In this document: piece after piece, positions 35,322 through 62,253 of the stretch | Numbering within the stretch: position 1 is the first letter of the stretch | Layout of the letters: each line of letters begins with the position of its first letter | From: Nannobrachium achirus | Taxonomy: Eukaryota > Chordata > Actinopteri > Myctophiformes > Myctophidae | Assembly: GCA_963921795.1 (NCBI GenBank) | Contig: OY997661.1 | Coordinates: forward strand, 35,381,470 to 35,445,469 | Direction of reading: 5' to 3' | DNA: 64,000 nt | The notes under the pieces: model-generated | What the model was told of the DNA's origin: nothing | What the model saw: the letters and a program-made list of their open reading frames with translations, nothing else | Database searches by the model: none | Translations under genes and position numbers: made by a program

Positions 35322-35448
35322 ATGGCGGGTCGCTTTGTCTCCTATTCTTACTTCCAAGTCACTCTGTGGACTCTAAAGTCATGGATGGTGATTTATCTCT
35401 ACGTGTTATGGATCAACTGTTACAGCGCTTCTGTCACAGCCCCCCCAG
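35322..35448 (+). CDS. Ig-NLR exon 1: signal peptide
   Basis: The start ATG at 35322 has A at -3 and G at +4. The exon encodes 42 residues with a hydrophobic core ([11 protein letters not shown]) and a likely cleavage after the SASVTA stretch. The frame is open upstream to 35145, but the upstream part has no signal-peptide character. The donor is gtaaag, phase 1. No TATA box or other promoter element could be assigned. Confidence 0.75.

Positions 35449-62253: not shown

Follow-up and report, generated by a model that had tools for sequence, protein, structure and literature searches.

Results

Exon structure of the window gene

The window analyzed here is a stretch of 64,000 nucleotides from Nannobrachium achirus (C24:35381470-35445469 in the 1.66-Gb assembly). 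Its plus strand carries 13 exons which, rebuilt from the raw sequence, join in frame to 1,179 residues with no stop (Table 1). The exons have AG/GT boundaries with compatible phases; the five front exons (E1 to E5) and the NACHT exon (E6) are linked via phase-1 introns, and the LRR exons via phase-2 introns. The original prediction had listed twelve such exons. All twelve were present, but a thirteenth, the 42-nt exon E5b, had been missed.

The leader encoded by E1 was called a signal peptide by eye. At the other end, the last exon in the window presumably corresponds to the short linker preceding B30.2 in fish NLRs, which it resembles. Directly after the window, a run of N extends to ~2500 nt, followed by an open frame that encodes the C-terminal half of a SPRY domain and a stop (Pfam SPRY, 5e-7). 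This half reaches 2834 nt beyond the window and lies ~4.2 kb downstream of the final exon in the window. Judged from this frame, the window gene probably has a B30.2 C-terminus.

Far upstream of E1, the window also contains a JAM-A/F11R-like Ig exon (PDB JAM-A, 7.9e-8, with a titin chain ranking above it) and a further Ig-like frame identified by eye.

Table 1. Coordinates of the window gene, of neighboring Ig-like sequences and of selected related loci (window positions unless a contig or locus is named)
Feature	Position	Strand	Length or phase	Description
Ig-like frame	2728-3126			found by eye
JAM-A/F11R-like Ig exon	4715-4924	+
Exon 1 (E1)	35322..35448	+	ends phase 1	ATG, signal-like leader, GTAAAG donor
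Exon 2 (E2)	37525..37824	+	phase 1-1	Ig domain 1, CD2/SLAM-like V without cysteines
Exon 3 (E3)	40055..40333	+	phase 1-1	Ig domain 2, constant-like, four cysteines
Exon 4 (E4)	41883..41984	+	phase 1-1	stalk and single predicted transmembrane helix
Exon 5 (E5)	43601..43654	+	phase 1-1	basic juxtamembrane tail RIKKRFFSR
Exon 5b (E5b)	45217..45258	+	42 nt, phase 1-1	variable linker exon
Exon 6 (E6)	46030..47797	+		FISNA-NACHT-winged helix-HD2, Pfam matches
LRR exon 1	50953..51120	+	168 nt, phase 2-2	open
LRR exon 2	51984..52151	+	168 nt, phase 2-2	open
LRR exon 3	57867..58034	+	168 nt, phase 2-2	open
LRR exon 4	59271..59438	+	168 nt, phase 2-2	open
Last LRR exon	60450..60596	+	147 nt, phase 2-2	open
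Short linker exon, last in window	62207..62253	+	47 nt	AG/GTAAGT
Intronless Ig copy	L032 197-1057
Intronless Ig copy	L033 125-1288	reverse		ORF
NACHT exon	C24:37593635			no listed Ig domain 1 exon within 25 kb
NACHT exon	C24:37796517			no listed Ig domain 1 exon within 25 kb
NACHT exon	C140:99917			no listed Ig domain 1 exon within 25 kb
NACHT exon	C260:5666			no listed Ig domain 1 exon within 25 kb

Domains and predicted topology

In Pfam searches, E6 matched FISNA (3.7e-31), NACHT (4e-31), NOD2_WH (2.5e-10) and NLRC4_HD2 (5e-36). The FISNA-NACHT exon is complete, as originally predicted, and FISNA lies directly ahead of NACHT on one large exon. The closest solved structures to E6 were those of NLRP3, FISNA part included (1.5e-55). 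Furthermore, E6 has a 97% copy plus a large family elsewhere in the genome.

Ig domain 1 matched the Pfam Ig models weakly, below their cut-offs. A profile of 12 sequences (without those of U6, D1 and D3, and with a copy from C20) placed CD58 at the top (3.2e-6), with CD48 and CD2 lower in the list. By this profile likeness, Ig domain 1 is a CD2-like V domain. For Ig domain 2, seven sequences were used. None had a Pfam Ig match, and a weak likeness to antibody constant domains was detected (2.8e-4; 0.0022 with the profile); its four cysteines are invariant in 7/7 aligned sequences. This domain is weakly recognizable as Ig, by its antibody-constant likeness and its place only.

In the hydropathy analysis, a single strongly hydrophobic helix stood out at residues ~240 to 270; the only other hydropathy windows above threshold start at 576 to 580 and 695 to 699, both inside the NACHT exon. 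Five N-glycosylation sequons lie N-terminal to the helix. Since this single helix is followed by a basic stretch, a type I topology is predicted, in which the Ig domains would be outside the cell and the NACHT domain inside. With this layout, FISNA is predicted to start ~26 residues inside the membrane without E5b and ~40 residues with it. In the window gene, neither exon 5 nor exon 5b encodes a tyrosine. All elements of the original prediction (a signal-like leader, two CD2/SLAM-like Ig domains, a predicted transmembrane helix, a basic tail, the FISNA-NACHT exon and the LRRs) were read in the window gene.

The exon order is kept in related units

Fourteen units were read: the window, nine close units (ten with the window) and four distant ones (D1 to D4). 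The 13 units other than the window were fetched because of an upstream Ig exon. The order E2, E3, E4, E6 is kept in 10/10 close and 4/4 distant units. E2 is open in all 14 units, and E5 was located in all 14 and aligned in 13. A search for E1 covered the window and the close units, the stretches of the distant units beginning too near E2 to contain it; an E1 homologue was matched from its first residue in four of the nine other close units.

With no phase filter applied, E4 has eight different lengths, each divisible by 3 (14/14 units). Likewise without such a filter, the sole GTGAGT within 110 nt yields an E5 length divisible by 3 in 10/10 close units, and so does the first GTGAGT in D1 to D3. 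D1 to D4 have a second, out-of-frame GTGAGT 4 nt further on. In D4, E5 measures 57 nt by homology, the script pattern having taken an internal GTGAGT (39 nt). Across the units that were read, splice sites are preserved, apart from three misses of the boundary script: the E3 donor of U3, E5b of U4 and E6 of D3, the latter two of which were identified by other comparisons.

A variable linker exon lies between the tail and the NACHT exon

E5b was found as a small aligned block when the 2.4-kb interval between the tail and NACHT exons was compared between copies. Alignment recovered it from every one of the ten close units and from D2 and D3; it is also visible in D4 and is missing from D1. In the close units, which hold 11 copies of it, E5b is 33, 42, 48 or 60 nt long, divisible by 3 in every copy (11/11). 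In the D units it measures 36 nt with the chosen acceptor and 38 nt with a neighboring one. The window E5b encodes 14 residues and is open in frame from the tail to FISNA. Indeed, the joined exons contain no stop, with or without E5b, in 13/13 units in which the pattern located both ends; in this count, E5 donors were accepted only if in frame. Since the join is open either way, E5b may be a cassette exon, and its length, which varies among copies, may tune the coupling between membrane and NLR. Neither E5b nor the first ~25 residues of E6 contain a start codon common to the units.

In unit U11, the interval from tail to NACHT exon holds two copies each of E5 and E5b. Such an internal duplication could make the linker vary.

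The intron between E5 and E6 is 301 bp long in D1, a diverged unit, and ~690 to 710 bp in D4, where E5b lies within it; 13 such intron lengths fall on all three remainders modulo 3. In the gap of only 301 bp in D1, a terminal exon, a polyadenylation site, an NLR promoter and a first exon would hardly fit.

A hidden terminal or first exon in the 2.4-kb interval was also sought with a conservation profile over nine other units, which had no distinguishable peak. This profile is uninformative because the close copies are mostly 80 to 95% alike throughout, and some of them lack long portions of the interval; the distant units are more telling.

Two ordinary NLRs have other N-terminal exons

Two ordinary NLRs without an upstream Ig match (L035 and L036, two read of many) have different exons ahead of the NACHT exon. 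We take these to be the usual fish NLR N-terminus, with a peptide repeat in L036 and longer linker exons in both. In each, the N-terminal exons end at a candidate phase-1 GTAAGA donor, judged by eye. Used as queries, these exons, drawn from two NLRs only, had no real match in the window or in the Ig units; three short matches were obtained, two inside FISNA (U3 and D1) and one antisense (U13). Since the tested N-terminal exons are absent from the Ig units, the Ig-TM-tail exons occupy the position of the usual N-terminus.

Ig and NACHT exons are paired across the genome

Merging 73 main NACHT matches with 150 FISNA matches yielded 153 NACHT/FISNA sites. The 73 were taken from 101 NACHT matches, the other 28 being second pieces of the same exons, and the 150 are those scored of 494 FISNA candidates. 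The site counts are lower bounds, since there were 494 to 604 candidates and fewer were scored. Of the 153 sites, 37 are preceded by an Ig domain 1 exon of the same orientation at a distance of no more than 25 kb. None (0/153) is followed by one in the same orientation at that distance, and none (0/153) has one on the opposite strand. Two further pairs came from additional NACHT sites, for which selected Ig domain 1 positions on C24 were tested. By coordinates, at least 39 NACHT loci are thus paired with a same-strand upstream Ig domain 1 exon. The pairs are located in several regions of C24, on C17, C12 (where the FISNA match is partial), C5, C7 and C22, and on small contigs. Independently, 19 of the 24 transmembrane exon matches are followed on their own strand by a NACHT site no more than 25 kb away, and none (0/24) has one on another side or strand, as judged with the sites on the five contigs that bear transmembrane matches. 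We conclude that the Ig-NACHT layout exceeds chance.

Unpaired exons were also observed. Among the best 103 Ig domain 1 matches, 66 lack a listed NACHT site in the surrounding 25 kb, two of which were paired later; the same applies to 5/24 transmembrane matches, for which no NACHT site is listed nearby, the NACHT sites being partly scored in both cases. Conversely, 4 of the 12 NACHT exons nearest to that of the window (its own included) have no listed Ig domain 1 exon within 25 kb (Table 1), and one of them, on C260, lies only 5.7 kb from the contig start.

Three further observations concern genome organization. At C17:13944852-13959878, five Ig domain 1-like exons with identical match scores are spaced by ~3.7 kb on one strand, as in a young tandem array. 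The FISNA matches at C24:3864641, C24:35167172, C24:40640498 and C24:28733724 lie in open frames of 1956 to 2296 residues, unusually long for one exon. Finally, many FISNA exons on C10 and C23 belong to another, more distant NLR group.

Solo relatives, stop codons and selection

Two intronless copies, on C20 and C6, are solo Ig receptors that end in a short tail, with the layouts IgV-IgC-TM-tail and IgV-IgV-IgC-TM-tail. They are likely processed copies. The search for processed copies found no intronless copy running from Ig into FISNA; the solo copies neither prove nor exclude a fused transcript. If the E5 donor is not used in the D units, the frame runs straight into a stop, so that a short receptor isoform is possible.

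Stops were detected in Ig domain 1 at C24:5068192, in an Ig domain 2 match at C24:35144829, in the transmembrane exon at C24:37471847 and in NACHT at C24:44186285; those in Ig domain 1, the Ig domain 2 match and NACHT belong to paired copies. Of the main NACHT matches, 72/73 are free of internal stops. For E2 and E3, respectively, dN/dS was 0.67 and 0.91 within the close set, 0.54 and 0.74 when close units were compared with distant ones, and 1.14 for both exons within the distant set. For FISNA, they were 1.29 (close), 0.91 (close-distant) and 0.76 (distant). Since these values, FISNA included, are too near 1, selection cannot separate the hypotheses considered below.

Discussion

Vertebrate NLRs are treated as cytosolic sensors. 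The gene described here is very likely a single Ig-Ig-TM-FISNA-NACHT-LRR fusion, as judged from its exons and their recurrence. This central claim of the original prediction gained from four results: the layout recurs, the junction is open in 13/13 units, the gap in D1 is 301 bp, and the ordinary N-terminal exons are missing. Misjoining of two neighboring genes is now much less likely. Taken as a whole, the data are best explained, with good probability, by an expanded family in N. achirus of which the window gene is a member. Its product would be a type I membrane protein with two CD2/SLAM-like Ig domains outside the cell and a complete fish NLR (FISNA-NACHT-LRR, probably with B30.2) in the cytosol. 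Most likely, the fusion originated at a phase-1 intron, where SLAM-type receptor exons replaced the N-terminal exons that a fish NLR usually carries. The human SLAM cluster adjoins F11R/JAM-A, so the JAM-A-like exon upstream of the window gene hints at a SLAM locus as the place of origin of the fusion.

Three other readings of the locus were weighed. If a SLAM-like receptor and an NLR were separate neighbors duplicated as a block, their in-frame join would be coincidental. Block duplication would also preserve order and strand, solo receptors of the Ig family exist, and five of the 24 transmembrane exon matches have no listed NACHT site nearby. However, this explanation, which we regard as very improbable, has to accommodate tail and NACHT exons only 301 bp apart in D1, N-terminal exons of two ordinary NLRs with no real match in any unit, a linker exon that separates the tail from the NACHT exon and has lengths divisible by 3, and a stretch comprising this exon and the first ~25 residues of E6 in which the units share no start codon. 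A locus with two products is somewhat unlikely; polyadenylation downstream of E5 would give a short solo receptor, and splicing to E6 would give the full Ig-TM-NLR. Such a locus would account for the stop directly after the E5 donor in D1 to D4, for the intronless solo relative that stops shortly after the same tail, and for the first ~40 bases past E5 being fairly well kept, but the flanks of other exons are likewise kept to some degree. Finally, the fused gene could be real and its copies mostly decaying or unexpressed by-products of runaway duplication. The dN/dS values near or above 1 in several comparisons and the stops in Ig domain 1 (C24:5068192), the Ig domain 2 match (C24:35144829), the transmembrane exon (C24:37471847) and NACHT (C24:44186285) are consistent with such decay, whereas the absence of internal stops from 72 of the 73 main NACHT matches and the preserved splice sites in the units read argue against it. 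We consider this reading quite improbable.

The window gene shares with the CD2/SLAM family a V domain without the usual cysteines, similar to CD58, CD48 and CD2 by profile. Its weakly recognizable second domain has four cysteines and may correspond to the C2-type Ig domain with two disulfides of that family. SLAM receptor tails carry tyrosine motifs, whereas the tail of the window gene lacks tyrosine and leads into an NLR. NLRP3, which provides the closest solved structures to the NACHT exon with FISNA included, meets membranes through a basic linker ahead of FISNA. Unlike the window gene product, it contains a pyrin domain and lacks a membrane-spanning helix. According to the report on zebrafish NLR-C/NLR-B30.2 genes, FISNA-NACHT, winged-helix and superhelical domains lie on one large exon, the LRRs are single-exon, and the N-terminal exons shuffle (PMC4852459). 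The window gene shares with these genes FISNA-NACHT on one large exon and LRRs each on a single exon. It differs at the N-terminus, which in zebrafish comprises peptide repeats or death folds depending on the group (PMC4852459), and in the window gene Ig-Ig-TM-tail.

The fusion of Ig and NACHT parts in a membrane protein has a precedent. AjNLRC4 of the sea cucumber Apostichopus japonicus has the layout Ig-Ig-TM-NACHT and is reported to be located on the cell membrane, to bind microbes via its Ig part, to dimerize and to act in actin-driven phagocytosis through its intracellular NACHT (PMC8699970). Like AjNLRC4, the fish protein would have two Ig domains outside, a transmembrane helix and NACHT inside, its topology being predicted. 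In contrast, AjNLRC4 is an echinoderm protein that has no LRR and a second predicted helix after NACHT, and FISNA is not mentioned in the parts of the article consulted (PMC8699970). We consider convergence more likely than homology, because FISNA and the CD2-like parts are vertebrate types. Other invertebrate NLR-type proteins share membrane helices with the fish gene. For AjNLR-new, an inverse orientation with NACHT outside and Ig inside is reported (PMC13133943), and sponge NLRs have predicted membrane helices, with no Ig-NACHT combination described in the portion of the text consulted (PMC12909245).

Among vertebrates, the accessible parts of the fish NLR literature describe no Ig-bearing NLR. 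A review of fish NLRs includes 'transmembrane' in its set of displayed motifs, with no detail in the part consulted, and one paper refers to a sex-linked region of grass carp that contains both NACHT and Ig V-set genes. The original prediction stated that no described vertebrate NLR with such a layout was known. This part stands for the open-access literature searched, as far as its texts were accessible, but the sea cucumber protein is a precedent in an echinoderm (PMC8699970). A membrane Ig-NACHT receptor is thus already known as a general layout from an echinoderm; what is apparently new is its occurrence in a vertebrate, as a transmembrane Ig-NLR family of dozens of copies that also includes FISNA, LRR and probably B30.2.

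By analogy with AjNLRC4, the fused protein could act from the outside in. Its Ig domain would bind either a like receptor or a partner carried by another cell or a microbe. Clustering of the heads would gather the tethered FISNA-NACHT modules at the membrane and lower the barrier to NACHT oligomerization, and LRR/B30.2 would serve as a cytosolic check that holds the switch closed, or as a second sensor. We propose this mechanism, in which ectodomain clustering would drive NACHT assembly at the membrane, tentatively, at a little under even odds. Signaling could also run from the inside out: LRR/B30.2 would sense a cytosolic trigger, and NACHT assembly would cluster the Ig domains, thereby marking the cell or changing how it adheres. 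CD2/SLAM-like domains serve in adhesion, and the retained LRRs and probable B30.2 would be needless for a pure outside-in receptor. Nevertheless, we judge inside-out signaling unlikely. Returning to the outside-in mechanism, its consequence would be a large and dispersed vertebrate family (at least 39 loci, 14 of them read) whose CD2/SLAM-like ectodomain directly controls an NLR that is switched from outside, a possibility that we put at just short of one in two.

If true, a complete NLR tied to a cell-surface adhesion or recognition domain would unite two branches of innate immunity within a single molecule. The family would suggest that fish evolve NLR inputs by N-terminal exon swapping, in parallel to plants, which add integrated domains. 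It would also provide a clear test of whether forced membrane proximity suffices to trigger a NACHT domain.
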